DNA of 64,000 nt from Dacryopinax spathularia. Lineage: Eukaryota; Basidiomycota; Dacrymycetes; Dacrymycetales; Dacrymycetaceae. The translations under genes and the position numbers were made by a program. Below are positions 1 through 16,869 of this stretch, piece by piece. Positions within the stretch are counted from its first letter, which is position 1. The number at the start of each line of letters is the position of its first letter. The notes below the pieces were generated by a model, which was not told where the DNA came from, searched no databases, and was given only the letters and a program-made list of their open reading frames with translations. The stretch spans positions 124,001 through 188,000 of the forward strand of contig JBBPFI010000003.1 of assembly GCA_037974965.1 (NCBI GenBank), given 5' to 3'.

Positions 1-13
1 GGCTGCCTCGCTT

Positions 14-944
14 GTGCCTCCGTCCTCATCAAGGACGGCACCATCGAACTCGAGGGGAACCCCCTCGTATGCGAGTGTTGCTCAAACACCCGCATATACT
101 CCTCTGGGTAAACGCCCAGCTGAAGAACCTCCGATGGGTCCCCCTCCCCGCAAACTCCCCACTCCTAGGAGTGGCTCCGTCCCCCTGGGGGACATTCCTG
201 ACGGCTCTACGAGCCATCAGGCTCACCCTCCCCTTCCAGGGGCGCCGGAGCTTCCCCCGGATTCACCATGGAGACGCGTGAGGAGTCCTCACGATATCAC
301 AGCCTTGCGCCAGGCTGGTGGTGAAGTTTGGCGTCGTCTCAAGACTGACGCGCCCGTGTATCGTGCACGGTTTGGGATTACCCGGGAATACCGGAAGTGG
401 GAAGGGCTCGCCGACAAGCCCCTCCTCGGCAAGGATAACCTGCGAAATGCAGGGCGTGGCGTGCGTCGCACGATGGACGGCCGATATTATCGACCGGATG
501 CCGATATCTTCTTCGAGATCGAGAAGATCCGGGAGAACATGGTTAAGAGCAACCATGTAACCAAGGCCATGCGGACCTTGTTCTTCGAGGAGCTCCTTCC
601 CTCGCTCTTCCAAATGCCTACCTCTTGGCGGGAAGCCATGGATGGGTATTCCATCCCGGATCGCCCATCCTCTCGGATGGTGTTCAATATTCTGGCTGCT
701 TTCGAGCCAGTTCCTCGGGGTGCCCCAAACGTCCCCGTTGCGTGGTCCCGGCGCGAGGTGGTGCGTCAGCTCTCCCTCACCGGCTTGGCCCGGGGTTCTA
801 GTGAGAAGTTGAATCACTACTTTGCCCGCAAGAAGGGCGAGCGCCCGTATATCATATACGATCATCAGCTTCCCTATTGGGACGCTGCGGATTTCACGGA
901 GCCCCGCGACGGAGCGGCTCCGACCGCACAAGCGCTCGCGGCGC
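14..944 (+). CDS. Unrecognised ORF of the older LTR element, partial
   Basis: The frame is open at the window edge, so the true start probably lies upstream. The first hundred residues are rich in Pro and Ser (for example SYASVAQTP and GPPPRKLPTP). They are followed by about 200 residues of likely helical, charged sequence with many Arg, Glu and aromatic residues. I see no zinc knuckle, protease, polymerase or transposase motif and do not recognise the protein; a Gag-like structural role is only one possibility. The frame is interrupted at 944 by the young Ty3 element. The remaining Pro/Ala-rich tail of the same ORF is on the other side, at 16669-16869. Confidence 0.45.
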
Positions 945-1387
945 TGTGCGACCTTCTTCCCTTCTAAGGCGAGTGCGACTCTCGGGTAGTGGTCGAGGTT
1001 GGAGGGGTTGGTGTCCGACCCGGAAAGGGGCGATCTGGTAGTTCGGGAAGGGTGGGGGAATTGGGAGCAGGAAGGAGGATCAACAAGGACGATTTGACGA
1101 ACGGTACGCGGGCGGGAAATCGGACGAAGACGCGGAGCTGGGGCTAACTAATTGGATGGTGGTCGAGGATCGAAACGCGGCCACGAGCCGCATAGCTGTA
1201 CAGTTTGTACTTCTAGGTAAACGGAACCCTCCTTTTCCCGTGTGGAGCGGTTTCCCCCGACCCTTCCGCGAATCCCCGTCCGGCACCCGGGATCGATATA
1301 CCGGAGCCGGCCGGAATCCTGCCGGCGAACAGGCCGGTACCGGGCCTCGCTGAGTCATCCGCACCTAGGCGCTTACGAAGCCGCACA
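945..1387 (-). repeat. 3' LTR of the Ty3 element
   Basis: 443 bp, TG...CA ends, identical to 16226-16668 except at one base. In the element's own orientation it is the 3' LTR. The bases just inside it (1388-1393) read GGGAGG on the minus strand, a short purine tract that could prime plus-strand synthesis. Because the first cargo gene starts only 110 bp from this LTR and runs away from it, the LTR or its edge may also supply that gene's promoter; this is inference. Confidence 0.95.
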
Positions 1388-1497
1388 CCTCCCAGGGACT
1401 TTGCATCCGAGGCCGTCCCCGGCCTCATCGTCCGACCTTCCTCGAAAGCCCAACCCCCCTACTCACCGACAGCCCACGCACAGGTGTCTTAGCCCAG

Positions 1498-4400
1498 ATG
1501 GCCGACGACAATCCTCCCGACATACCTGTTCCCCCGGACTACCCGCGATTTGTCGCCGAAGACGCGCCCTGGTCGCCCGAGCTCGCGAAATGGGTCGAGT
1601 ACCCAACCAACTACGAGGCCTTCGAAGGGTGGTTGGAGGGAACGTGGGGAGAATGGGTGCGTCCGTCGTCGTCCATCCGATCGCTGTTTACTAACCCGGA
1701 TTGTCGGCGAAGGCTCGATTGACACGGGAATGGTCCCAGCACGGCTCCTGGAGCGAGGAGAAGATGGAGGCGGCCGCCGCGTACTTGGCGTTTGTCGAGG
1801 CGCGGCAGCGCGAGGACCTATGGGACTACGCCCCCGAGGACGACTCCGGGTGGGACGGGGCGCTGGATGAGGCCCTCCCGGAGGGTGTCCGCCAACGAAT
1901 GAGAGCCCTCGAGGCCCGATTCCCCGTAACGGCGTCCGCCTCCGATTCCCCGAGTCTCCCAGCCGGGCAAGAAACCTCGTCCTCAGCCCCCGTTCCTCTC
2001 CACTCGCATGTGAGCGACGTCCTCGCAAGCCTATTTGGTCCGCCCGACGCCCTGTCGACGCCGAGCGCCGCTTCACCGGCCGTCCTTGCGGCCGACAAGT
2101 CGGTCGTACCCCGTCCGGACCCTCCGCCGAAAACACGCTCGGAGGCGTTCCAGGAGGTTCCTCCGTGCTGGGGCGACGGCCCATTTCCCAGCACGCATCC
2201 CCTGGCGAGCTACCCGGTTTCCCCCCGCGACTACAAGTACTGGCTGCGGGAGACGGGCAAACTCTTCCGTGACTTTAACACGGCCGCCACTCCCACCGAT
2301 TGGAACGGCCAAGCTGTAGAAGCGGCAGCGCGGTGGCTCGCTTTTGTCTCGCTCCGTGCTTTCGTGTGGCAGATCCACCCTGATCCGGCCACCATCGGGT
2401 GGTCCCCCTTGGACGAGTTCCCCGAGACCGTCCAGGCTCGGGCTACCGCTCTGTATGAAGAACATAGGCCGGGATACGAGACCCTACTCGCCGAAAAGTC
2501 GCCGGAGAATCGTCCGTACTCCCCGGGCCTCTCCGTATATCGCGAGCGAATCTCACGGCGCAGCATATCGCGCCACGTTCCCCCTGCCTTGCTCACCCTC
2601 CCCATTAACCGTCTGAACGCAGCCCGCCTCGTCATGCTTGGCGAGTCGATGTGGCGCCTCGAGCTCACGCTCACCCGGGCCATAATTCGTCTGAGGCAGG
2701 GGGAGGCGGCACCGCCGAAAGAGTTCATCCCGGTGCTAGCCGACATCGCCTTCGAATGGCGATCCCACCACGTTTATTTAGGGCCGATCGCGGAGCCCCT
2801 GCGTTTTGCCCTCGCCTTCGCCCGGCAACGCTACCCGGACGAGTACCGCAAGTTTCGATGGCGAATCGCGTTTGGCACCCGCTTTTTGGAGAAGGCTTTC
2901 GACCCCAATAGCCGCACCGCCCAACTTATCGCCATCCTTGGTGCCTCTCCGCCCGACATGCCGGCCGGTCTCCGAAAACCCGTCCGGGCGTTCGAACGAC
3001 TCGCGCTCAGCTTCCCCGGCTTTCGTTCCACTCAGGAAGCCGCGGACGAAATGGGCGACTGGATGACGCTTGCCGCCGAGGAAGTCATATCCCCTTTTGC
3101 CACTGCCCTGTCAGCGAAACGCTCCCAGCCGTTCCACAACTTCCTGCACGCCGCGTGCAGAGTCTTCCTCCCCCTTCTCGCCCGTTATCAAGTCGTACGC
3201 GGGGAGGATGCTCGCATCCCTTGGGAAATTTTGGAGCAAGTCGGACGGGCGAGCCCTTGGCCTTATCCCCCCACCCCATCTTTCCGCTCGGACGGTTTCC
3301 CGGCGCAGTGGCGATATTTCGTCGCGCATTCCGTCTGGCTGATCAATACCGCCCTCAAGTCCGCCCCCGAGGCAAACGCGTCGAAGGAGCAGTGGGGAAC
3401 ATGGGTGGCCGGCCTTCGCCCTTTGGGCACCGCTGTGAAACGATACGCCGACCTCCGTATCGGATATCCCCTTCATTTTTCGGAGTCGTTGTCGACCGTA
3501 ATCGACGCGCTCGAGCGGCTGCAGAAGAGTCGGGGAATTCCCCCTCCTGAATGGGTGTCAGCCATTCCCGCCTTCCTCCTTCGCAAGGTCAAGGCAGACG
3601 GCCTGCTCCTCGGGCTGGAACCGGTATCCGACGCCGACAGCACCGTCTCCCACATTTCCCACGATTCTCGTGATCCCGGCCGGTATTTCGAGCGGGACCT
3701 CGAATCCGTCCTTGTCGATTTCGACGCCCCTGGTCAGTGGCTTGATATCTTCTACCCCGAGCCCGCTGTTCCCCGCCCGGCCAAGCGAGCCCGGTCCTCG
3801 TCTTCGCCGCCCGCCACTCCACGGGCAAAACGCCTTGCTACGCCCAAGTCCCCTCCGCGCGCTGTCCCTTGGCAGCTTCGTTCTGGGCGAAAATATCCCT
3901 CCGCTCCTGCCCCCGAGCAACACGCGCCCCCTCCGTCCGACAGCGACTCCGCCGTCCCCAGCGGCGACGAATGGGCAGGTCCCTCCTCCGACACCCCGGA
4001 CGACTCGGACGCGGATGCGGACGAGAACACGGACTCGGACGAGATCGTCGAGATCTCGGCCCGATTTCGCACCCCGGATGCGGAGGCAAATTCGGGGGCT
4101 AGTTCCGCCTCCGTGTCTTCACGCTCGCCTACTCCTCTCCGCAAACCCGCCACCACTCGTCGCCGTCCATCGACCGCGACCACCACCATTCCCTCCCGCG
4201 ACATGCCCTCCTCCAACGAGCCTTCCGTCTTCGACGCCTCCTCCAAGCAGCCGCGCCCGATTTACGTCGGCCCCCCGAAGAAAGTCCCCAGCAACCTAGC
4301 CGCGCCCGTCTCCGGCCTCACGGCCGACGCCGCTCGTAGTCCCCACCTTCTCGTCTGTCCCTACCTCCCCGCACTCATCGACGTGTCCAAAGACGCGTTC

Positions 4401-5326
4401 AGCATCGCGACGGTGGAAGAGAAAGGATTTGTGAGAGTGGTTGGCGCCGACGTTGGTGGGAGGAAGGGCCGGGATCTGCTGGTACGTCGCCTGGTTTCGA
4501 CTACTCGTCCGGTCATCCGGTTCTAACGCATTTCTAGTTCGCAACCGGCATATATGCGTGCCTCTTGTGCCACGCCACCCAGAAGAGCTCGTGGTCTGGA
4601 CTTCGGCGAGTTTGCATTCGTTTCCCCGGTCACAATTGCCTCAAGGCGCACGACCAGGACGTGAGATCGACCTTCTTCAACTCCCAGTTCACCGAGAGTG
4701 CGTTCGTCTTTTCCCGTATCGTCGTTCCACTAATCTCTCTTCCCCCTTTTCTAGTTCCTTTCGATCACTGGGAGCTGTTGTACGACCGCGGCGTTACGAA
4801 GGCACAATCCGACGACGCGAAGACCTTGTATAGCAGCAAGTTCCATCGCCGAGTCGAGCGCCTCCTGTTCCCCGGCGATCGTGGGCAGCGGGAACTCGGC
4901 CGAGTTATCGCACCGTGGGACCGCCCGACCCCGGGCCTTACGTACGCCACCCTGCCGAGGAAGAAGAAGAGCAAAGGCGAGGCCCCCGTTGCTTCCCCTT
5001 CACCCGTCAGCGTTCGCGTGCCCACCCCCGTGGCGGGACCGTCCGGTTCCAGCTCGCGCAAACGTCCGGCTCCCGAGTCCTCGCCCGTGCCCGAGGCCGA
5101 GTCATCGGCCGATCCTTCGGCGAATGAGGTGCTGGGGGTCGCCCTCGACCTCCTCGAAGCCCTACGATCCTTCATCGACGACGGCCGCGCTACCACGTCT
5201 CGCGATCTCGCCGACGTGTTCCGCCATCGTCGCGTGACTAAGCTGGGCATGCAGCTCGACGAATTGCACGCGCTCGCTGACAGTTACTTGGCCGATCGCC
5301 CGTCTCTTCCCTCCGACCGCGCCTGA
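1498..5326 (+). CDS. Cargo gene 1: unknown 1219-aa protein in the retroelement
   Basis: Four exons (1498-1656, 1713-4481, 4538-4697, 4755-5326) joined by three canonical introns of 56, 56 and 57 bp; the frame closes without a stop. The direction is opposite to gag-pol. I do not recognise the family. Residues about 35-125 and 220-306 look like two copies of one unit (WL..T...., then EAAA..LAFV..R....W, then GW..L.E..PE.V..R..AL). The middle is helical and Trp-rich. Residues about 690-880 are acidic, Ser/Pro-rich and probably disordered, with EIVEIS after an acidic run, like a SUMO-interacting motif, and several basic patches. Exon 3 brings a small Cys/His cluster (CLLC, then C, H, C and H). 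The C-terminus is a predicted helix. No transposase, nuclease, envelope or methylase motif is evident. A nuclear role is a guess from the basic patches. Confidence 0.8.
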
Positions 5327-5746
5327 CCCACGTTTCCAATTCCTTTGTAGTCATCTTCCTCTCTTTTCGTTTCCTCCTCGTCTCCCGTTTACCCGCGGGC
5401 GCCCTCGCCCCCTTACACCTTCCTAGTTGTTGACCCCCGATAGGCATAGTAATCCAGCTTTCTCCACCACGACCCTACCAGGCGCTTTCCGGCCGATATG
5501 TCGGCCGAGTATACGGACGGCGCCTTGTTTTAATTCCCGCCCGTTTTGCTGTGCCGGCCGCCCTTCCCTTGTTCGTTCCGACCCTTCGATCGGCAGGTCG
5601 GTAGTGCGCCATCTTAACGCCCTTGGACGCGTCGTGATGCCGCGGCCCTCCAGGGGAGCGTCTGAATTCTCGGGGCGAGGCCGGCCGTACCCCGGCCGCG
5701 TACACCCTTTATCTATGACCAACGCTCCACCCCACTCCGCGAGTTT
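5327..5746. other. Non-coding spacer after cargo gene 1
   Basis: About 420 bp of pyrimidine-rich then GC-rich sequence between the stop of cargo gene 1 and the DUF2433 fragment. Presumably it holds the 3' end of the cargo 1 transcript. No convincing ORF or repeat. Confidence 0.5.
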
Positions 5747-6250
5747 CTAAACCACCCCACCGCTGTCTAGGCAACGGGTTATGGCCTGATCGAGGACCGT
5801 CGAGTTCTCAATGCAAAACCCTCTGGCCCTGAGCTGCTCGAGTATCTGCACATCCACACGCGCGCCCAGACGGTATACACAGGCACGTTCAGCCGCTGAG
5901 CACCCGACAGGAGCAGTGGAAGCTCGCTCAGTAGGGACGTAGGGTGCGACAGGATCGTTTGTCGGATGACATTTGGCATGGTGTCGCTTCCCAGCCGCGT
6001 CTGCCGCGGTCACGGAGAAACGAGGGCGGAGTAAAGAACCAGATCCCGCAGTGTGCCATCGGTCGTTTATCCTGCCGGCACTGTTGTTGTCGAAGCAGCC
6101 AAAGGCTCCGGTATGGGTAACAGCCTTCGCACCCGTCTCCCGTGCCAGCTCATTGATCAGGCTGATCTTGCCCCGAATGTCCGCCAGACGTAGAAGTGTC
6201 GATGACCTTGACCTGAGTGTTGGCGGTCACAGGCGGCGGACGAGGAGACG
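5747..6250 (-). pseudogene. Decayed DUF2433 phosphoesterase-like gene fragment
   Basis: Minus-strand translation in more than one frame gives clear pieces of the fungal DUF2433 (calcineurin-like phosphoesterase) family: LRLADIRGKISLINELA, a degenerate HTGxFGxFDNNS followed by RINDR, then SELPLLLSGAQRLNVPVYTVW in another frame, then VLDQAITRCLDSGGV. The order is that of the intact family, but the frame shifts at least twice and the metal-binding part is altered, so this is not a working gene. Intact members are several hundred residues long; only an N-terminal to central part is present here. It has the same orientation as gag-pol and sits between the two cargo genes, which suggests capture of host mRNA by the element. 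Family recognition is from memory of the motifs. Confidence 0.7.
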
Positions 6251-6439
6251 GGATTGACTGCGCAGAAGACATGGCTGGCAAAGCGTAGGGCGTCGATGTG
6301 AACAGGCCGATTCCCCCCTACCATGTCCTCGGCCATAGTCCCGGCCTATAACGCGCCTGGTCGACCACGTCTCCGAACGTATCCTCGGCCGTACTCCCGG
6401 CCTGTAACTCGATGCCTCGCCCCGGGGGAAGAGGTTAAA

Positions 6440-6557
6440 CACGTGCTCCGCACGTGTCCGCACGTGTTCTTTCACATGGCCTTAGAGCTTCCGGAAGCTC
6501 GGCGTCGACGCCGTCTTGATGGCCTCGCGGAGTTAAGCGGAGGTAAAGGAATATAAG
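6440..6557 (+). promoter_or_regulatory. Likely cargo gene 2 promoter: three CACGTG boxes and TATA-like box
   Basis: Perfect CACGTG palindromes lie at 6440-6445, 6451-6456 and 6461-6466, with start-to-start spacing of 11 and 10 bp, about one helical turn. TATAAG follows at 6552-6557, 40 bp before the ATG at 6597. CACGTG is the E-box bound by bHLH proteins such as Cbf1 or USF. The arrangement fits a promoter for the plus-strand gene, separate from the LTRs. The role is inferred from position. Confidence 0.6.
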
Positions 6558-6596
6558 GGGGCATGGTGGGCCTGAGGGACGCCAGTGCAACTCAAG

Positions 6597-9524
6597 ATGT
6601 TACGACCACTAGCAGCGAGCGATCCGACACCGGTCGACCCCGACTCGCAGGACCTGACCGTTCTGCTCACGCAGACGAGCAAGAAGACCGAAGAGGATCA
6701 GCTCGCGTCGCAAGAAGGAACGTCGTCGGCGGAACGAGTGTATGCAAGTCTGAAGGAGTACGTTCCTGGCGAATTCCCGGCCGGAACGGGGAGGAGTGTC
6801 CGGGCGTACGTCGAGGACGCGACCGCGCGTTGGGTGCGTCGTCTCAGCGCGCCCTGGTGCTAAGCTAACGTTCGGCGCAGGCTATGATTATAGCGGGCTT
6901 CGCACAGAAGGAGTGTAAGTTCCCGGACGAACTGGAGGAGCGTTTCGCAGCCTGGTTGTCGACCACAAGCGCACGCCGCGTATTCGGGGTCCTTGATCCG
7001 TTCGTTGTCCCGGCCGAACTCGTCCGGCTGGTGTGCCGCCGAGATAGCACGGCAGCAGCTCTCGCCGCACTCCAGCCTTTGTCGCACCTGAAGAAACCCA
7101 ATCCCCCAACGTTCGTTCCCCGTTCCCCGCGAGACAGTATCGTTTGGGGAGTGATAGAGGGCACCCGTTGGCTGCGGCTGCGGGAGGAGGTCGCTACCCG
7201 CCCGGCCAGCAACGAAGGGGCGTTGGTATGGCGAGGGTGGCTAAAGAAAGCGGGAGAGTTATGGGTACGTATGTTTGCGACGTGGCATACGATCTTCACT
7301 AATTTCGGTGTAGCGGGACATCTACGAAGACGTCAAGACGTGCTCGGTCGAGATACCGCCCGAGTTCCAGGACGAAATTCGGCGCCTTTTTAAAATACTG
7401 GACGAACGGTCGATGTTGCAGGGGTTCAAAGAGCGGGATTTGTGGCCGGTCCCCGACTTTTTCACGCAAACCAGCGATCGGTTGGTAACGAAGCATCCCG
7501 GAACTTTCGACGCCTCCGTGCGAGACATCGCCGGTGGGAAGGGTGCCTTCGCGGACGCGTTCCGCAAGTTACTTCGACATGGTCCGTCGCCCGAAGTGCT
7601 CCCAGGCAACGTGGAGCGCTTCGCGGAATGGATGGCCCCAGTAGGGGATGCTCTCGTGAGTTCTGCGCCTGTTCTCCCGTCGGGACCGTTACCTGATGGA
7701 ACTGCCAGGCCGAGGTGTTGTCGGTGGCGCGCGAAAACCCGTCCGCGTTTACGGACGACATGCGGGCGGTATACACGTTGTATGCCGATCTAGAGCTGCA
7801 ATGGGTCGAGAGTTTCCCCGGCCTCGTCCTACCGGTCCTCGAGCGAAACCCCGTACAACTCGGCCCACTGCTTTTGCGGAAGGCCGTCCGTCCGTTCGAA
7901 CCCTGGAAGACGGACGTGAACAAGGACGCCGACGGCCGTTATCACATCCCGCCGAGGTTGTTCCCTGCGCGCCACCGCCTCTTGCTGGAGCGCGGGGTGG
8001 AAGCGGTTAAAAATGGGGAGGTGGAGGGACGGCCGGTGAACCGGGCGGTGCGTTGTCCCGCTTCTGAAGCTCCGGTACCTGTACTGATGTGGAAGCCAGG
8101 TGAACGCGATCCGCGCTCGGTATCGGTTGCTCATGCCCGCCCTTGGGGCGCCGTGGGGAGCGGAAGAGGAGTTCGTGGCCGCGTGGGTGAGCGCCGCTGA
8201 GAAAGCTGGCCGACCCTTGCCGATCGGTCCGCTGTACCTCCCCGCTTACCTACGCCCGCTCGTTCCTCGCGAGAAATGGGGAACGCCCCTGGACACTCTC
8301 GTTCGCGAGACCCCCCTTCTCGACGACGTCGAGAAGGTCGAAGACGGACCCGTATCCCCGGCCGAGAGCGCGGCCGAGGTCACGGCGAGTCTTGTTCAAG
8401 AGCCGTCCGCGGCAAAACCGACGTCCCCTAGACCCGCGGGTAGTACTACGACGCCCTTCGCGGCCGCGTCGTCTGCCACACGCCTCCTTCTGGTCGACCT
8501 CGCCGAGTACGAGAGCGAGACGGAAGAAGAGGGCGAGGAACCGATCGCCGATGGTCCCTTCGCCGGCCCTCCCATCATCCAGGGCCTCGACGTGACTCCG
8601 AAGGAGTTCAACCTTATCCCTTCGTCCACGTCCACCGAGGTCCCGCTGCCGTCGGCCGAACCGGAGACGCCCGCAGCCCCGCACGTCCCACCCGTTCTCG
8701 TTGTTCCACCGACTCCCGCACCTGCCCCGCAACGCACGGTTGCGGAAAGGACCCCGCTGATCGAACGGGTTCACTCAATGAACCCTTCAATCAAAGCGCT
8801 GACCCCCGAGCCCGATACCCCGGACGACGAATCGCCCGAAGGAACGCCCGTCAAGTCGCCGGCGCCCAAGCGCCGTGCCCGCCCCCTCGCCCCAACGGCC
8901 GCATCCCCGTATGATGAGCAGGGCGTCCTCCCCGCCCGGTCCGCGAGAAATGCCGCCCGTGGGAAAGATAAGGGAAAGGGCGCGGCGTTCCACCCCCCGA
9001 AATCGCCTATCGTGCTTTCTTCGGACGACGACAGCCACAACCCCGTCGCGAAACGGCCGCCGCAGCCGGCGCCCCTTGTCCGCCGACTCGAGATCGACGA
9101 CGCCACCGAGAACGAGGAGCAACCCGACGAGGCTGAGGCGCCCGACACGAATTCCGAGCCGGAAGAGGTGTTTGCGGGCCCTGCTACACGGAAGGGCAAA
9201 GCCGCCCGTTCCGGCGTACGCCCCAATCCCGACCCGGGCTGGGAGTCGGCCGGCTGGACGGCCGATTCCTCGGCCGCCAAGCGGGCGAAGCGCGCCCGGA
9301 AGTCCGCTTCCGCATTGTCCCCGGACGACGTAGAAGCGTCTCGGTCGGCGGCGGCTCGTCTTCTGCGACTTACAAAGGCCTCTTCCAGTCTGATGAAAGA
9401 CCTGGACAGCCCGAACTCCGTCGCCCGCGTCCGGGCCCGTAACGCGTTGCTCGCAGAGGCGTCGAATGTGGAGCAAGCGGTTCAAACTATAGCGGATAAA
9501 CTCCAGGAGGACCTCGATTCCTAA
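6597..9524 (+). CDS. Cargo gene 2: unknown 908-aa protein in the retroelement
   Basis: Five exons (6597-6833, 6881-7264, 7314-7655, 7709-8047, 8100-9524) with four introns of 47, 49, 53 and 52 bp, all in phase 0; the frame closes without a stop. The ATG at 6597 was chosen because it lies 40 bp after a TATA-like box and in frame with the exon. An ATG at 6563 is in a different frame. The first about 480 residues are mostly helical with scattered Trp, and I recognise no family. The rest is disordered and rich in Pro, Ser, Asp and Glu, with PIVLSSDDD, a textbook SUMO-interacting motif, and basic clusters such as KRAKRARK. It ends in a predicted coiled-coil-like helix. It shares its general layout, though not clear sequence, with cargo gene 1. 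Convergent with pol, 335 bp apart. Confidence 0.8.
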
Positions 9525-9859
9525 TGCCTCATTGCCTATTCCCTCGTATTCCTTCCATTTCTGCTGCTGTATTCCTTCCCATTTTCCCTGGTATGTTCTT
9601 CCTCCGTTACTTTGTCGCCCGTTGGTATCCGCGTCCCGGTTAGGTCGGTTTTTATTGCAGCTGGAAACGAATGACAGCATGCTTTTCCGGCCCCTTTGTA
9701 CCAGGTCTTTTTCGCCCGTGTGATCGGCGATTCTCCGGCCGTAAATGCCTCAAATTCGCGCCCGGTTTATCGGTAACTTGGTCTATTCGGGTATCGTAAG
9801 TACCGTCCACCGAGCGAAGGTATAGGGTATAAGGCGCTCGGTCGGTTCTTCACTCTGCC
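9525..9859. other. Spacer between convergent cargo gene 2 and pol
   Basis: 335 bp, T- and C-rich at the left, with no ORF. It must contain the 3' ends of both the cargo 2 transcript and any pol-side signal. No clear terminator can be named. Confidence 0.5.
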
Positions 9860-12800
9860 TTACTCATCATCCCCGAGGGGGCCTTCCTCGGCGTCCTCTG
9901 GGAGGGGCTCGACGTCCGGGATAGCTCTCTCGATACGGTCGAGCTCCTCCTCCGACAAACCCGTCAGGGTTGTTACCGGAACTCGTGTGGTAGAACGCGC
10001 AGCATACGGGACCACTCGGAAAGCCGCGTAGGGCACCCTGGAAACCGCGCCCGAGATCTCGGACAACACATACGTTCCGCCAGGTTTTCGCCGTACAACC
10101 ACCATCGGACCAAGGTATCGTGGCTTTGTCTTCCTGTTCAGCTCCTTTTCCACTCTCGTGTTTCGGACAAGGGCCAACTGTCCAGGCTGTAAGTCGTGGT
10201 CGACTATGTTCCCTGCGAACCGTTTCGTAAAACGCGCAGCTGACTCTTTTCGCGCCTTGTAAACCTTCTCACTCAGTTCCGCCAGGTCCATTTCCCGTTT
10301 TGATAGCTGTTTCGCGCGAAAGGCGATCAGGTCCGTTTCCTCGGCCGGGATGTCGGGAGGGTCGACCAAGTACGTAGCTTCCACAACGTCAAAGGGGAAA
10401 ATTGGCTCGACCCCGTGCACCATGAAGTACGGGGACAGACCAGTTGACCGGAGAATAGTAGTCCGTTCCGCCCACATCGTCGCGTGCACCATCTCCGGCC
10501 ACCTCTCTTCCTCCCCGCCGCATGCCTTGATCAGAGACTCCCTGAAATCAAAGTGCCGCCTTTCGACCACCCCGTTTGCTTGGGAGTTATATGGCGAAAT
10601 CGTTATGTGGGCGCACCCATACCGCTCAGCTAGCACCCGTCCAGCTAACAGGAACGAGCTGCCATTGTCGGTGACGATCTCGGATACCGTACCCCACCGG
10701 CATAACACCTCCTCGAACAGGAATCTCGCCAGAGATTCGGCGTCTTCTCGGACGAGCATTCGCCCCTCGCACCAGGAGGTGAGGGAACACCGGGCATGCA
10801 CGAACAACGAATACCGTAGCCTCCCTGTTCCCCACCTCGCTGGAGGCAACGACATCGTGTCTACGTAAACTTTCCCGAATAGCCGGTGGGGCTTGGGTAC
10901 AACAGGCGGTATGTGGATTCTGCGCGTTTGCCGGATCTGGCACTGGTGACATGTTCTGATATACCACTTAACATCCGTAAGTAGACCGGGCCACCAGAAT
11001 CTTTCGAGTAGCCGAGTCCGGACGGTGTAGACGCCTTTGTGTCCTAGCTCATCGTGCGCCTGCCGGAGGAGTCCCAGACGCCGGTTGCTTGGTACAACTA
11101 CTAGATGTCGTCCGTGTCGGTCGCGCCGCCACAGTCGGCCGTCCCTGACGAAGTAACTGGAGGCTCCCTTGACGAATTGTCGGAAACCGTTCTCATCTAC
11201 AGTGGCAGGGCGCGTTCCCTCCTCGAGGAACTTTTGTATTTCCACCAATCGGGCGTCTCGTCTTTTCCCTTTCGCCGACTGAGGAAGCGCGTCCGGTATT
11301 TCGGACGATTCCGCGGCCAAGAACACCGCTGTCCCGGGTAACTCCTTCCCCGTTTTCCCTCCCGGATCCGTGATAGCTTCCAGTGTGGGCGGGGGTCTTC
11401 TATTCTCCACTTCAAAAATAAAACCCATCGCCGTGTCCAGCCAGGCCTCCACTTCGTCCGACGATTCTTCGGCCGCGTCTTCGGGCGACGATTCCCGCCG
11501 CGAAAGACCGTCAGGCCCCTTGTGCTTTTCCGCCGGCACGTGTCGCAAAGTGAACTGGAAGAGATGTATTCCCGCTATCCACCTGTTTACCGCGGCATTT
11601 GGCTGGATATCCGGATTATTCAGCATTCCTTTGATGTACTTCGCATCCACTTCTACCGTGAGGTTCGACACGCCGATCAAATATAGCCTCGTCGCTTTCA
11701 ACGCGCGGAAGAGGCCGTATAATTCCAACTTCGCCTGCGAGTATCGCCGCTCCACATCCGACCACGGGATCGACCCGAATCGAGAGGGGTACCGACGCCG
11801 GCCGTCCTCTCCGACCTGATAAATCACAAAGCCTACCCCGATCACCGAAGAGTCCACAGCCAGGACTACCTCCCTCGCGCTAGCGTAATCGATCGGCCGC
11901 AACGCCGGGGAAGTACAGATCAGCCTCTTCAAGGCGTCCATCGCTGCCTGTTCTCGTTCCCCCCATTCGAAGTCGGCATCTTTCTTGGTAAGGTTCACCA
12001 GGGGCCTTGCGTGTATCGCAAAATCCTTTATAAAAATCCGAACTACCCCGGCCGTGCCCAAAAACCCGCGCACTTCCGTAACACTCTTGCACGGTGGCCA
12101 GTTGCGTATCTTGTCTACACGCGTCTCGTCGGGAACCCGCCCCTCATATGTACACTTATGGCCCAGGATGACCACTTCCGGGACACATATGTGTGATTTG
12201 AGACCAGATACCGTCGCCCCCGCATACTGTATCCGTTGCAGTATCCGATGTGCGGTTGCGCACGTCTCGAAGACAAACCGCCTTATCCGAGGGTTCTCCG
12301 GCAGACAGGCCGGCTTCCCGTCCGCGTCCTCGTATCGCGTCCTCGGGCCGGGGCATCCGATGTCGTCGATGAAGCACACAGCCGAATGTGGTATTTCTTC
12401 CCTTAACACGAACGAGACGTCGCCGTGAAGGATCTGTACCGAATTCGTCCACCCCATGGGCAGCGTTGTGAGCCGCAGCGCCCCCAAGGGAGACTGGAAC
12501 GCGGTAAGGTCGCGCGATTCCGGTGCCAGCTTCCGCTGGTCAAAAGCCACGTATAGGTCGAACATCGCATAAGCCGAGCGCCCGGCGAACGATTCGGCGA
12601 TTTGCTCAACCATGGGAGGGACCGCTGCATCCTTTATCGTTACCGAGTTAAGCTTTTGCAGGTCGTGAACGATCCGAAGAGACTTTCCGTCCTTCTTAAC
12701 CACGCAAAACCACCGGCTCCGGTAAGACGAGTTCGAAGGCTCGTAGACTCCAGTCGCTAGCTTGTCCTTCATTATCGCGCACACTTCGTCAAATATCCCC

Positions 12801-13642
12801 GGCGGTATCGGCATATTTCTCTCCGCCCAGGGGATGTGTTCGACCGTAGGTATGATCACCGGTTCGAAATATTCGTCGTTAAACGCCCCCCTTTCTTCCA
12901 CGCTGAACGCGAACGCCGATTCGTGCTCCGTCATTACCCACCCCACCAGCTTTACTTCTTCCTCCGTAAGGAAACCGTCCGCCCCCACCTTCAAGGAATC
13001 CCAGCGATCCTGCGTAACCCGACCCTTTGGCGCGAAATCGGGCGGATTCGTGGGTAGTTCCCGCATACCATCCAACGGATCGGACGGGAACCGGCGAACC
13101 ACCCGGAAATCTTCCGGCAACGTCGTTGCCACAGGTACTACCCTTTTGTGGACGGGCTTATATTTCTTTCCCGGTTTCGGCCTCCCATCCTTCTGGGCCA
13201 GATACACCCCGATTTTGGGGTCGAACTTAAAGAGACGCGTTATCGTCCGTGCCTTCAGGTATTCCTCTAATGGAGTCGACCCCATTTGGACAAACGGATT
13301 TAGTCGGGAGAATCCGACTGGCGAAAAGTATGAAAGAGAGACTGTTTTTGTGTTTGTTCGGGGTACCCCTTTTTCCGATGTTTTTCGATTTTCGATTTTC
13401 TCGGGCGACTCTTCGGACGGATATGCGGCCGGCCCTCCTCCTGCGTCTCTTACGGACGACGCTTCGGACTCGCCCCTCCCTAAAAATCCGCCAACACTTC
13501 TATACGGGGTTTCCCTGTCGAGTCTTTCGACCGTGCTTTTCGCTCTCGCGGGCGTGTCGGGACGGTGATCTGTCGGAAGTCTCGGTTCGGGTCCCGGATG
13601 GTGATGTGCTGTGTACCGTCTAACGCGTCCGTGGTGACGCAC
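9860..13642 (-). CDS. pol: Pol: reverse transcriptase, RNase H, integrase
   Basis: 1260 codons on the minus strand. RT lies at about residues 260-460 with DLYVAFDQRKLAPESRDLTA and the catalytic FIDDI (YxDD) motif near residue 422. RNase H of the Ty3 type follows (VVLAVDSSVIGVGFVIYQ, then LELYGLFRALK). The integrase has an HHCC zinc-binding motif (H...H...CHQC) near residue 900, a D-D-E core (YVDTMSLPP, VTDNGSSF, SQANGVVERRHF) and a GPY/F module (RYLGPMVVVRRKPGGTYVL). I see no chromodomain after it. The domain order RT-RH-IN places the element in Ty3/gypsy rather than copia. It looks whole. Downstream lies the 8-kb cargo segment instead of the LTR. Confidence 0.95.
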   Translation of the reverse strand: MRHHGRVRRYTAHHHPGPEPRLPTDHRPDTPARAKSTVERLDRETPYRSVGGFLGRGESEASSVRDAGGGPAAYPSEESPEKIENRKTSEKGVPRTNTKTVSLSYFSPVGFSRLNPFVQMGSTPLEEYLKARTITRLFKFDPKIGVYLAQKDGRPKPGKKYKPVHKRVVPVATTLPEDFRVVRRFPSDPLDGMRELPTNPPDFAPKGRVTQDRWDSLKVGADGFLTEEEVKLVGWVMTEHESAFAFSVEERGAFNDEYFEPVIIPTVEHIPWAERNMPIPPGIFDEVCAIMKDKLATGVYEPSNSSYRSRWFCVVKKDGKSLRIVHDLQKLNSVTIKDAAVPPMVEQIAESFAGRSAYAMFDLYVAFDQRKLAPESRDLTAFQSPLGALRLTTLPMGWTNSVQILHGDVSFVLREEIPHSAVCFIDDIGCPGPRTRYEDADGKPACLPENPRIRRFVFETCATAHRILQRIQYAGATVSGLKSHICVPEVVILGHKCTYEGRVPDETRVDKIRNWPPCKSVTEVRGFLGTAGVVRIFIKDFAIHARPLVNLTKKDADFEWGEREQAAMDALKRLICTSPALRPIDYASAREVVLAVDSSVIGVGFVIYQVGEDGRRRYPSRFGSIPWSDVERRYSQAKLELYGLFRALKATRLYLIGVSNLTVEVDAKYIKGMLNNPDIQPNAAVNRWIAGIHLFQFTLRHVPAEKHKGPDGLSRRESSPEDAAEESSDEVEAWLDTAMGFIFEVENRRPPPTLEAITDPGGKTGKELPGTAVFLAAESSEIPDALPQSAKGKRRDARLVEIQKFLEEGTRPATVDENGFRQFVKGASSYFVRDGRLWRRDRHGRHLVVVPSNRRLGLLRQAHDELGHKGVYTVRTRLLERFWWPGLLTDVKWYIRTCHQCQIRQTRRIHIPPVVPKPHRLFGKVYVDTMSLPPARWGTGRLRYSLFVHARCSLTSWCEGRMLVREDAESLARFLFEEVLCRWGTVSEIVTDNGSSFLLAGRVLAERYGCAHITISPYNSQANGVVERRHFDFRESLIKACGGEEERWPEMVHATMWAERTTILRSTGLSPYFMVHGVEPIFPFDVVEATYLVDPPDIPAEETDLIAFRAKQLSKREMDLAELSEKVYKARKESAARFTKRFAGNIVDHDLQPGQLALVRNTRVEKELNRKTKPRYLGPMVVVRRKPGGTYVLSEISGAVSRVPYAAFRVVPYAARSTTRVPVTTLTGLSEEELDRIERAIPDVEPLPEDAEEGPLGDDE

Positions 13643-16080
13643 GACGTGAGGACAAAGAACGGCCGGCCCAGAAGCATTTCGAAAGGCGCCTCATTCACGA
13701 CCTGGATCTGGAGATAGACTTTTACTCCACCCACCGTCACTTCTACATTCTCCAAGAGCCCGGCCGTCTTCACCAAGTCGCCGGCGGCGCCTTCCATGAT
13801 CCACTGTTTATCGGTGACCAGTGGCAACTTCATTTCTTCCCACAGGTCCCACCGGAGGGCGCACACCTGCGCCCCCTGGTCTAATATAGCCGTCACATCG
13901 AGTAAACCCGCGATATTCACTTCCACCGTTCGAAGGGGCAACGAGTCTTGGGCGACGACCACTTTTCTGCGTTTCCCGTCCTCCGGGGGATCTCCAACGA
14001 GGTACATGTTGTGATATTCCGCTGTCTCCGCAGGTGCCTCTTCGAGTTCGAACTGGTGGGCGGTGGCCACTGGAACACGTCGGGTCGTCACGAGATCCTT
14101 TATCCTCCTCCGGATGTCCGGCGCGAGCGCTAGCAGCTCCTCCTGCGTCACTACAATGCTAGCTGCCAGAGACTTCTCTAACACCTTCGAGATTATCCCC
14201 GGGTTTTCTACCGGCGTCTGAATTTTGTATTGGGCGGCCGACCCTCCTTCCTCCTTTTCAGCTCGTTGTCCAGCCGGTTTACCGGGCGGTTCACGTGCGG
14301 CGGCCGGCCGGTTGCCGCCCGGCATTTCCTCAATTGTCGCTCGCGTGGGACCTTGCCTCGTAGGCTGAGTAAGTACCACCTCAGGCACCAGCCTGGTGGC
14401 GGGATTGGTCGGTCTACCAGTCCCCCGCCTCGTGTCTCCCGGAGCCTTTCGGGTTTCCGTCACGCCCTCTCCTTGTCGCCGGCGTTTGTCCTCCACCACT
14501 CGCCTTCTCTCGTTTACCAATACCGTCAACCTTTCCAACTCCAGTTCGTCCTCGTCCTCCGCTATTTTCCCCGTTGCTCCAAAGTTGAAAACCGACTTCG
14601 GCTCGTCAACGTCGACATCCAGCACGTATCCTTCGGCGAGTTCGGTAACTTCATATAAGTTAACGGACGCCACCGACGTCTCTTTGCGCTGTTGTTCCTT
14701 CTGCGCCGCTCGTTGTTCCCACGCGGCATCGATCTTGTCCTTGAACGTCTCTCCGTACCCCCGAATCACCGGCGACCCGTCGGGGTAAGCGATGTGCCCG
14801 GCGGTGTTCCTCACGCACCGTCCCTCCCTCATATACGTATCGGCCACTTGGCAGAACTGGATCCGATGACCCGGTCCTCCGCAGAAGTAGCATATGAGGG
14901 TCATGTGCGGGGGCGGGGCTCGCATTTGCCCGGCGCCTCCTCCCGCCATGTTCCCGGACGGACTCTCGAACCCGCCACGCGGCGGCTCGACGAAGCTCGG
15001 CCTACCTGGCTGGTAGCCACCCGTAGCGTACCGTCCCTGCCCCATCGACTGCCCCACGCCCGTCTGGCCAGAGGGTACCAGAACCGCCAGCAGTTCTTCG
15101 ATTCGTTTCATTCGTTGATCCAGAGCCGTCGGTACCTCCTGTACTTCGGTCTTCACCCGAGTCCCGGCCGTTTTGTCGGACGTAGGTTCCGTCGGGTACG
15201 CTCCCCTCAACTCCGGCACCACCGCCGCACCCGAGCCGTTCAGCAAAAACTCCGCCGCGTCGCGAACATCTTTCCACGAATACGGGTCGTCCAGCGGCTG
15301 AGCCGGTTTCACGATCATGAGGCGATTGAGTAGAAGCGGACGGAACTTCGGGTCGAACCCACGCATGAATGCCTGATTGATTTCTCTGTCCGAAATCTTC
15401 TTGCTGGCCGCTAGGAAGTTCGCAATCGGCAGAAACTCCCTGCAGTATTCCCCGAGTTGATCTCGAGAAGACCCCCACCTTATGTTTCGACCCTCGGTGA
15501 CCCGCTCTAGGTCGTCCAAGCGGTAACGCCGATCCCGGTCCGCGCCCGGATACAGGCTCATGACCTCCTTCTTGAAGGCGAGATAGTCTGGCGCCTCTGC
15601 CTGTGCCGTCGACAACGTCTCCCAGACCTCTGCAGTCTGCGGGTCGAGATATAACGTCGCATATTCGATTTTTTGACCGTCATTCAGCCCGGCCGGTTCC
15701 GCTAAGAGTTCGAGGTCCTTAAAATAACGAGAGAGCCCCAGCGCCGTACCGTCGAACTTCGGCGCCGAGGGACTGTTCCGCGTCGGCATAGGGGTGGCCA
15801 TCGTCGCCCGACTTCCAGACGACAAGACAGTTCTCGGCGAAAGATCGGACGAATAGTTGTCAGGTCCCGAAGGTGACGCTGAAGAGTCCGTGTGTTCAGG
15901 CACCGGGAAACGGTACACCTCCCAAGACGAGGTGGAACCGGCAGAGACTGCGCGTGGTGACCGTGTTTCTCCTGTTGACGCCGTGGCCACAACTCCTTGC
16001 ACGCGCTTAGGGATCCTGGAGATTCCCGCAGAGACGCTATCCCCTGTCGCCCGTCTGCCAGGTTCCCTAGCTTGAACCAC
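13480..16080 (-). CDS. gag: Gag with zinc knuckle and aspartic protease
   Basis: 866 codons on the minus strand, starting 125 nt downstream of the primer-binding site. The N-terminal part resembles a Ty3-type Gag capsid region (helical, with FKKEVMSLYPGADRDRRYRL near residue 160). A CCHC zinc knuckle, CYFCGGPGHRIQFC, is near residue 395. After a long charged and disordered linker comes a retropepsin-like domain around residues 730-830 (TAILDQGAQVCALRW and later PFEMLLGRPFF). The frame overlaps pol by about 160 nt and pol lies in the -1 frame, as in Ty3-like elements that use programmed frameshifting. It looks whole. Confidence 0.9.
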   Translation of the reverse strand: MVQAREPGRRATGDSVSAGISRIPKRVQGVVATASTGETRSPRAVSAGSTSSWEVYRFPVPEHTDSSASPSGPDNYSSDLSPRTVLSSGSRATMATPMPTRNSPSAPKFDGTALGLSRYFKDLELLAEPAGLNDGQKIEYATLYLDPQTAEVWETLSTAQAEAPDYLAFKKEVMSLYPGADRDRRYRLDDLERVTEGRNIRWGSSRDQLGEYCREFLPIANFLAASKKISDREINQAFMRGFDPKFRPLLLNRLMIVKPAQPLDDPYSWKDVRDAAEFLLNGSGAAVVPELRGAYPTEPTSDKTAGTRVKTEVQEVPTALDQRMKRIEELLAVLVPSGQTGVGQSMGQGRYATGGYQPGRPSFVEPPRGGFESPSGNMAGGGAGQMRAPPPHMTLICYFCGGPGHRIQFCQVADTYMREGRCVRNTAGHIAYPDGSPVIRGYGETFKDKIDAAWEQRAAQKEQQRKETSVASVNLYEVTELAEGYVLDVDVDEPKSVFNFGATGKIAEDEDELELERLTVLVNERRRVVEDKRRRQGEGVTETRKAPGDTRRGTGRPTNPATRLVPEVVLTQPTRQGPTRATIEEMPGGNRPAAAREPPGKPAGQRAEKEEGGSAAQYKIQTPVENPGIISKVLEKSLAASIVVTQEELLALAPDIRRRIKDLVTTRRVPVATAHQFELEEAPAETAEYHNMYLVGDPPEDGKRRKVVVAQDSLPLRTVEVNIAGLLDVTAILDQGAQVCALRWDLWEEMKLPLVTDKQWIMEGAAGDLVKTAGLLENVEVTVGGVKVYLQIQVVNEAPFEMLLGRPFFVLTSCVTTDALDGTQHITIRDPNRDFRQITVPTRPRERKARSKDSTGKPRIEVLADF

Positions 16081-16204
16081 TCGACCAGAACGTAACGTTC
16101 TGTTGCTGCGCTCCGTCTTCGGGCGAACCCAGAGGCGACGTAGGTCGACTCAGTCCTTGAGTCGTGGTGGCGATTACCACAACTAACTCGAGCACTTTCA
16201 GACC

Positions 16205-16221
16205 CCTCGCGTTGGGCTCCA
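16205..16221 (-). other. Primer-binding site, tRNA-Lys-like
   Basis: On the minus strand, four bases after the 5' LTR, the sequence TGGAGCCCAACGCGAGG begins with TGG, as expected for the complement of a tRNA 3' CCA end. The implied tRNA end (GTTGGGCTCCA) resembles a lysine tRNA acceptor arm. The match to a particular tRNA of this organism was not checked. Confidence 0.65.
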
Positions 16222-16225
16222 AATT

Positions 16226-16668
16226 TGTGCGACCTTCTTCCCTTCTAAGGCGAGTGCAACTCTCGGGTAGTGGTCGAGGTTGGAGGGGTTGGTGTCCGAC
16301 CCGGAAAGGGGCGATCTGGTAGTTCGGGAAGGGTGGGGGAATTGGGAGCAGGAAGGAGGATCAACAAGGACGATTTGACGAACGGTACGCGGGCGGGAAA
16401 TCGGACGAAGACGCGGAGCTGGGGCTAACTAATTGGATGGTGGTCGAGGATCGAAACGCGGCCACGAGCCGCATAGCTGTACAGTTTGTACTTCTAGGTA
16501 AACGGAACCCTCCTTTTCCCGTGTGGAGCGGTTTCCCCCGACCCTTCCGCGAATCCCCGTCCGGCACCCGGGATCGATATACCGGAGCCGGCCGGAATCC
16601 TGCCGGCGAACAGGCCGGTACCGGGCCTCGCTGAGTCATCCGCACCTAGGCGCTTACGAAGCCGCACA
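16226..16668 (-). repeat. 5' LTR of the Ty3 element
   Basis: 443 bp, the second copy of the terminal repeat. It is followed on the minus strand by AATT and then the primer-binding site, which fixes it as the 5' LTR. The near-identity with the other LTR indicates a very recent insertion. Confidence 0.95.
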
Positions 16669-16672
16669 GCGC
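16669..16672. repeat. 4-bp target-site duplication GCGC
   Basis: GCGC directly follows the right LTR and is also directly before the left LTR (941-944). Ty3/gypsy integrases typically give 4-6-bp duplications. The site lies inside the ORF of the older element. Confidence 0.7.
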
Positions 16673-16869
16673 ACATCGAGCGGTTCGGGGACGGCCATAC
16701 GCCTGCCCCGGCACCTCCTCCTGCTCCTGCTCCGGCACCTCCTACGTCGGTGCCGGCTCTACCGGCCATGGACCCAGTCCGTGATTGGGCGGAACACCCA
16801 GCGCCGGGTGCCCCGGATCCCGACGATATCTGGGATCCGCGCAACCCCGACCCGGCACCCGAGTACTGA
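16669..16869 (+). CDS. C-terminal tail of the interrupted older ORF
   Basis: About 66 codons of Pro/Ala-rich sequence, ending in a Trp/Asp/Pro-rich stretch and a TGA at 16867-16869. It starts directly after the 3' end of the young element's LTR. The composition matches the ORF at 14-944, which is why both are taken as two sides of one insertion. It is followed within 100 bases by a purine tract and an LTR. No domain is recognisable. Confidence 0.4.
   Translation, partial: AHIERFGDGHTPAPAPPPAPAPAPPTSVPALPAMDPVRDWAEHPAPGAPDPDDIWDPRNPDPAPEY

Follow-up and report, generated by a model that had tools for sequence, protein, structure and literature searches.

A fungal Ty3 element with two intron-containing antisense genes between pol and its 3' long terminal repeat

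Can a retrotransposon keep, as a part of itself, intron-containing genes that are read against its own gag-pol? The question is raised by a 64,000-nucleotide stretch of the Dacryopinax spathularia genome (assembly GCA_037974965.1, contig JBBPFI010000003.1, positions 124,001 to 188,000), the whole of which we call the window and which is C3:124001-188000 in our contig labels. A Ty3 element of 15.7 kb lies on its minus strand at window positions 945-16668, and a preliminary description of the window had proposed that two spliced plus-strand genes belong to the mobile unit. We followed this up across the 29.2-Mb genome (24 contigs); judged by introns and gene content, the window itself looks fungal and probably basidiomycete. 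The element in the window is referred to as family A, and families B, C, D and E are other Ty3 families of the same genome; contig labels such as C1, C3 or C15 are distinct from these family names. Our analysis confirms that family A is a fungal Ty3 element carrying an antisense module of two genes, c1 and c2, between pol and the 3' long terminal repeat (LTR), and makes it likely that this module is kept by selection.

The features of the element are as follows, in window positions.

941-944, no strand: left copy of the target-site duplication, GCGC, read directly.
945-1387, minus strand: 3' LTR, 443 bp, identical to 16226-16668 at 442 of 443 positions.
1498-5326, plus strand: c1, four exons (1498-1656, 1713-4481, 4538-4697, 4755-5326), 1219 amino acids (aa), with homologues in family B and in gene clusters on C3 and C15.
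6552-6556, plus strand: TATAA, resembling a TATA box, about 40 bp upstream of the c2 ATG.
6597-9524, plus strand: c2, five exons (6597-6833, 6881-7264, 7314-7655, 7709-8047, 8100-9524), 908 aa, homologues found.
9860-13690, minus strand: pol frame with reverse transcriptase (RT), RNase H and integrase, 1276 codons, from open reading frame (ORF) reading, Pfam and a PDB sequence match.
13480-16149, minus strand: gag-protease frame, open for 889 codons with its first ATG at 15801, overlapping pol in another frame.
16205-16221, minus strand: primer-binding-like site TGGAGCCCAACGCGAGG, following the 5' LTR.
16226-16668, minus strand: 5' LTR, 443 bp, paired with 945-1387.
16669-16672, no strand: right copy of the target-site duplication, GCGC.

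Going from the 3' LTR towards pol, c1 comes first and c2 second, both on the plus strand, opposite to gag-pol. The two multi-exon gene models of 1219 and 908 codons were confirmed: the seven introns, three in c1 and four in c2, are all GT-AG and 47-57 bp long, and the exons are open. The distance from the 3' LTR (inner edge) to the c1 ATG is 111 bp in family A and about 203 bp in family B. A TTATAA stands about 100 bp before the c2 ATG in the B copies on contigs C5 and C9, and is altered in the copy on C1. Exon 3 of c1 encodes a cysteine-rich (Cys) domain, degenerate in family A, while c2 consists of a conserved N-terminal part and a tail that looks disordered by eye. The two proteins have no significant similarity to each other, and neither found a relative in the protein collection at the thresholds used. 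Pfam gave no bZIP match in c1 or c2, and transposase_28 (PF04195) was absent from both, the only full antisense proteins scanned for it, at E up to 1. The c1 core gave a low-confidence helical model, and its fold comparison returned no informative match.

The rest of the element was read largely as first described. The LTRs, the 4-bp target duplication and the whole minus-strand gag-pol (9860-16149) are in place. The LTRs, with TG...CA ends, differ by a single base and so are not fully identical, but the recent joint insertion argued from them stands. Neither the gag-protease nor the pol frame holds an internal stop. In Pfam, the aspartyl protease, RNase H and integrase zinc domain (H2C2) scored above cut-off; RT (RVT_1) reached 23.8 bits, under its cut-off of 29.6, and the zinc knuckle likewise stayed below. 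The domain order, protease / RVT_1 / RNase H / H2C2, puts RT-RNase H ahead of integrase. Ty3 Gag-Pol was the best PDB sequence match to pol (E 1e-35), and a foamy-virus integrase matched at 844-1101. The LTR (query 945-1500) had no other match in the genome, so that family A is a single copy. By its sequence it is a recent insertion and apparently coding-complete. A 16-mer of TGGAGCCCAACGCGAGG occurs at ten genomic places (including window 16203-16218), nine of them at Ty3 elements, six A/B and three D. A primer-binding-like sequence follows the 5' LTR, but a tRNA partner for it was not identified; the window contains no tRNA, and the tenth place (C13:38023) could hold a tRNA gene. Priming might also use a shorter match to a tRNA, or be self-priming.

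A genome search with family A pol matched five places at 69-70%, which make up family B. Its LTR (461-bp query) was found at 13 places, which form five pairs, each 14.6-14.9 kb from end to end, plus three unpaired LTRs. All five paired copies have a c2 relative, and a c1 relative was found in four. The stretch between pol and the 3' LTR, with its ends, was read in the copies on C1, C5 and C9, and two copies on C6 are known from search matches only, with c2 in both and c1 in one. In the three copies that were read, the order 3'LTR-c1-c2-(pol) and the strand are the same as in family A. Their LTRs are 99.4, 99.4 and 98.9% identical, respectively (BLAST alignment), each has its own target duplication (GCGT, GCGT and ACGC), and the flanks are all different. 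The expectation that several copies would show the same gene order at separate insertions was therefore borne out. Intron positions are also common to the two families: all four of c2, and all three of family A c1. Barring stops in the first 61 aligned codons, ahead of pol proper, four B copies have an open pol; the remaining one (C6, 314 kb) has a further premature stop inside pol.

The B copies allowed selection to be estimated. Comparison of the copies on C1, C5 and C9 gave a pooled nonsynonymous to synonymous ratio (nd/N over sd/S) of 0.22 for c1 over its first 804 codons and 0.23 for c2, in which the C1 copy was cut at 642 codons; it was 0.13 for pol, with a fourth B copy added. Changes were in excess at third positions. 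Over the main exons, pN/pS was 0.18 in the annotated antisense frame, with zero stops, and 1.69, 1.58, 1.30, 0.35 and 1.72 in the five other frames, with 50-95 stops summed over comparisons. The antisense frames are under constraint between transposed B copies. This constraint, together with the presence of c2 and c1 across family B, supports the earlier view of the cargo as part of the mobile unit, and we are confident that the c1/c2 module belongs stably to the element and is selected.

Antisense genes also occupy the corresponding place in families C, D and E. In an RT tree of 22 rows, A and B together stood apart from C, D and E; B, D and E each formed one supported group, and three unlabelled rows grouped with C. 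An antisense gene was present in 1/1 copy of A, 5/5 of B (c2), 5/5 examined of C, 4/4 of D and 6/6 of E, counts that leave out further C-like copies on contigs C1, C6 and C9 and three distant Ty3 copies on C1 and C2, whose pol is 25-35% identical. A rough model of the family C copy on C17 shows an apparently multi-exon antisense gene after pol with the pattern CX2CX6C...CX2CX8C, and the Cys and C-terminal pieces of this gene were found in all five C copies with the downstream 1.5 kb covered. A six-cysteine motif, composed after C and D had been seen, matched the antisense strand at 13 of 30 loci (5 C, 4 D, 4 E) and the sense strand at none. The 17 loci without it comprise six A/B loci, which reach only the c2 end, and 11 that are RT-centred or interrupted; as these stretches are short or broken, true absences cannot be counted from the scan, and the motif was present in every C, D and E copy where that stretch was covered. 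With a 260-aa exon outside the motif as query, the family E gene was found at six places, matching all six E-type pol copies, of which the one on C15 was assigned by its antisense gene and motif, outside the tree. In one E copy the gene is split by a family C element (C7:1305933-1315860). A genome search found the family D gene at all four copies, the one on C7 in two pieces with a stop. The antisense genes gave ratios of 0.11 in C (five loci) and 0.20 in E (four loci); in D, four synonymous and no nonsynonymous differences were summed over three loci, the fourth being missed by the pattern used.

Several observations nevertheless weigh against a module maintained in this way and against a common scheme for the five families. 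The selection estimate is built on few, non-independent copy pairs. In the B copy on C1 the last c2 exon shifts frame, and the copy on C5 is without about 250 bp near the c1 end; as these damaged modules lie between near-identical LTRs, a complete module may not be needed for each insertion. Between A and B, identity is 73% in pol, 27% in c2 and 28% in c1. When scaled by within-B distances, c2 is three times and c1 ten times too far apart, unlike a simply inherited essential gene, though the c1 figure is inflated, as the C1 and C5 copies seem to have exchanged the c1 region. Searched with c1 and c2, the family C copy on C17 gave no relative (best E 0.32), and comparison of the c1 Cys domain with the C, D and E motifs established no homology. 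Fungal Zn(2)Cys(6) domains have the spacing CX2CX6CX5-12CX2CX6-8C. The family E motif fits this, but PF00172 scored 10.7 bits for E and 13.8 for D, below the cut-off of 21, and matched neither the family C piece nor family A c1 exon 3. In addition, the last cysteines are missing from the Cys domain of family A c1, and no Pfam family matched c1 or c2 at E up to 1.

The excess divergence between A and B fits cassette replacement, and equally bursts of fast evolution. Under replacement, A and B would have taken c1-c2 separately from different relatives, and the position after pol would be a site for swappable cassettes. The synonymous distance between the C1 and C5 copies of family B is 0.034 in c1, 0.139 in c2 and 0.136 in pol, a mosaic that suggests recombination between B copies, and in families C, D and E the slot is occupied by other genes. 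However, a c2 tree holding A and B together was not rejected (p-AU 0.25), the two families have in common the absence of two c1 introns, a and b, and bursts of fast evolution would yield the same distances. Separate acquisition by A and B is in our judgement rather unlikely.

Introns a and b are known from relatives of c1 that stand without a detected LTR or pol. At C3:881-900 kb, on the window's contig, and at C15:618-631 kb there are clusters of three c2 and two c1 relatives each, the second c1 of each cluster being seen in its 3' part only and some gene models being rough or partial. The best gag or pol match at the two clusters had E 0.46, and element DNA including the LTRs found no match, with about 3.0 and 0.5 kb uncovered. 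Several of the genes have long open models and a conserved six-Cys domain. The c2 genes pair across the contigs (C3b with C15c and C3c with C15b are supported, and C3a is 50% identical to C15a), and the clusters look like diverged duplicates. Introns a and b are present in cluster c1 genes and missing from c1 of A and B, and an intron c is present in both clusters and in B c1 and missing from family A c1. Exact loss of c from A, and of both a and b from the two element families, is the trace that we infer a reverse-transcribed spliced antisense RNA would leave. The preliminary description had foreseen that the cargo might turn up as host genes elsewhere. LTR-less clusters of this kind do exist, but so do element-borne B copies; as the clusters are far diverged (c2 cores 21-33% identical to element-borne copies) and coexist with these copies, they do not refute the reading as a mobile unit.

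The clusters nonetheless offer a possible source. A c1-c2 host pair of the kind clustered on C3 and C15 might have been caught by DNA recombination and be carried as a passenger, with the selection seen reflecting a young capture or being inherited from the host. Besides the existence of two clusters without an LTR match and with gag/pol E of at least 0.46, the distribution of introns a, b and c is expected under intron loss from a host-type gene, and in the core comparison family A c2 is 27-33% identical to the cluster genes but 23% identical to its B counterpart. Yet the constraint within B acts between copies already transposed and so is not a leftover of a host past, and passengers would not explain why B, C, D and E also have antisense genes in that place. 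Capture of a mere passenger is therefore unlikely. Host origin and present function are compatible, and capture bears on the origin of the module more than on its role.

Movement in the other direction would mean that antisense genes of the elements gave rise to the clusters, the host having co-opted them once LTRs and gag-pol had been lost. The occurrence of antisense genes after pol in five Ty3 families agrees with this, as do the long open models and conserved Cys domain of several cluster genes. It requires, however, at least two intron gains (a and b) common to both clusters, and the longest c2 end branches are element-borne (1.57 and 2.25, versus 0.43-1.02 in the clusters); the tree itself leaves the direction unsettled. 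We regard such a domestication as improbable.

Joining the two flanks of the family A element with one GCGC gives an open plus-strand frame of 379 codons that spans the junction. The 335-aa protein from this frame has 96-100% identity at four uninterrupted places (on C16, C9, C4 and C5, the C4 copy with one stop), and these paralogues serve as natural empty sites that make the element boundaries firm. An assembly artefact, allowed for in the preliminary description, or a nested insertion of an unrelated gene-bearing segment, which 8.4 kb of gene-bearing DNA between pol and LTR, unusual for Ty3, might bring to mind, can be dismissed as extremely improbable, given that removal of exactly the element and one GCGC restores the host frame, that the paralogues are uninterrupted, and that three B copies, all on other contigs, repeat this architecture and five share its LTR spacing. 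The host frame that was struck (window 1-944 and 16673-16866) belongs to a recently multiplied family, with places at C16:406607, C9:817838, C4:253462 and C5:890373 and an 818-codon open frame in two copies.

For the selected module, a mode of action can be outlined. Genomic RNA would start in the right-hand LTR and be read leftwards. On this RNA the c1/c2 splice signals would be reversed, so that the introns would survive retrotransposition, and splicing would be limited to antisense RNA. Transcription of c1 would begin at the inner boundary of the 3' LTR or close to it, and that of c2 at its own internal TATA-type promoter. The proteins made from the spliced RNAs might work in the nucleus, either on the element's transcription or on the response of the host, like the accessory genes of complex retroviruses. 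By analogy with plant antisense proteins, and from the Cys domain and the basic and acidic tails noted by eye, we tentatively propose that the c1/c2 products are nuclear regulators.

Antisense ORFs after pol are already known in plant Ty3 elements. In Grande (gene23), RIRE2 and Retand they lie between pol and the 3' LTR and are conserved within lineages (PMC7264820, PMC11963269). The Grande antisense protein is nuclear-localised and that of Retand has predicted DNA binding (PMC11963269); an own promoter has been reported for gene23 (PMC7264820, PMC11963269). The preliminary description had spoken of one antisense ORF after pol in some plant elements. Some have more than one: 104 were counted over representatives of clusters whose number we take, from '37 of the clusters (59%)', to be about 63 (PMC11963269). 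Their origin and role are called unknown in the plant review (PMC7264820). The family A element resembles Grande, RIRE2 and Retand in its Ty3 type and in the extra opposite-strand coding region between pol and the 3' LTR. It differs in its fungal host, in its multi-exon antisense genes with conserved introns, in their relatives in clusters free of LTRs and pol, and, from the Retand type, in that c1 and c2 are without transposase_28. The words 'fungi' and 'intron' have no occurrence in the accessible text of PMC7264820 or PMC11963269.

HTLV-1 HBZ and related deltaretrovirus antisense genes are named in the same two papers (PMC7264820, PMC11963269). As with HBZ, an antisense gene starts here on the side of the 3' LTR, and HBZ regulates the cycle of its own element. 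HBZ is one small spliced bZIP protein, whereas here two large proteins without a recognised bZIP are encoded. LTR elements of bdelloid rotifers have additional ORF3 types (PMC5408684), and are similar in the cassette-like pattern by which extra ORFs are exchanged between retroelement types; the accessible parts of that paper describe no antisense multi-exon pair. No fungal precedent for antisense genes in Ty3 was found in our searches of the open-access literature, including the accessible part of PMC3248453, most subscription papers lying outside this scope. As far as searched in that literature, what is new is the occurrence in a fungus, the large size and multi-exon structure of the antisense genes with their conserved introns, and their relatives in gene clusters.

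More tentatively still, the five families may represent one lineage of fungal Ty3 elements with a slot after pol for exchangeable antisense regulators, filled by single six-cysteine genes in C-E and by a module of two genes, with relatives among clustered host genes, in A-B. This would be a retrovirus-like accessory system with an origin independent of HBZ and of the antisense ORFs of plants, and genes would have moved between elements and host clusters. Should the antisense genes be accessory regulators, a complex-retrovirus-like organisation would have arisen in fungal Ty3 too, and introns on the antisense strand only would show cleanly which strand had been transcribed, spliced and reverse-transcribed. 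With several families and candidate host relatives in one 29-Mb fungal genome, the origin of these genes is testable by comparative genomics, and their role by strand-specific RNA and DNA-binding assays.

Some further observations concern family B and c1. Single B-type LTRs stand beside c1-like fragments with a stop at C8:350247-352396 and C1:2496626-2498785, and these loci are probably truncated B-like elements. The c1 Cys domain also has isolated matches of 36-39% at C12:115311, C8:1419521 and C11:866407, which lie apart from the Ty3 copies found. Finally, the target duplications read in A and in three B copies are all RCGC in element orientation (GCGC, ACGC, ACGC and ACGC), which suggests a target-site preference.

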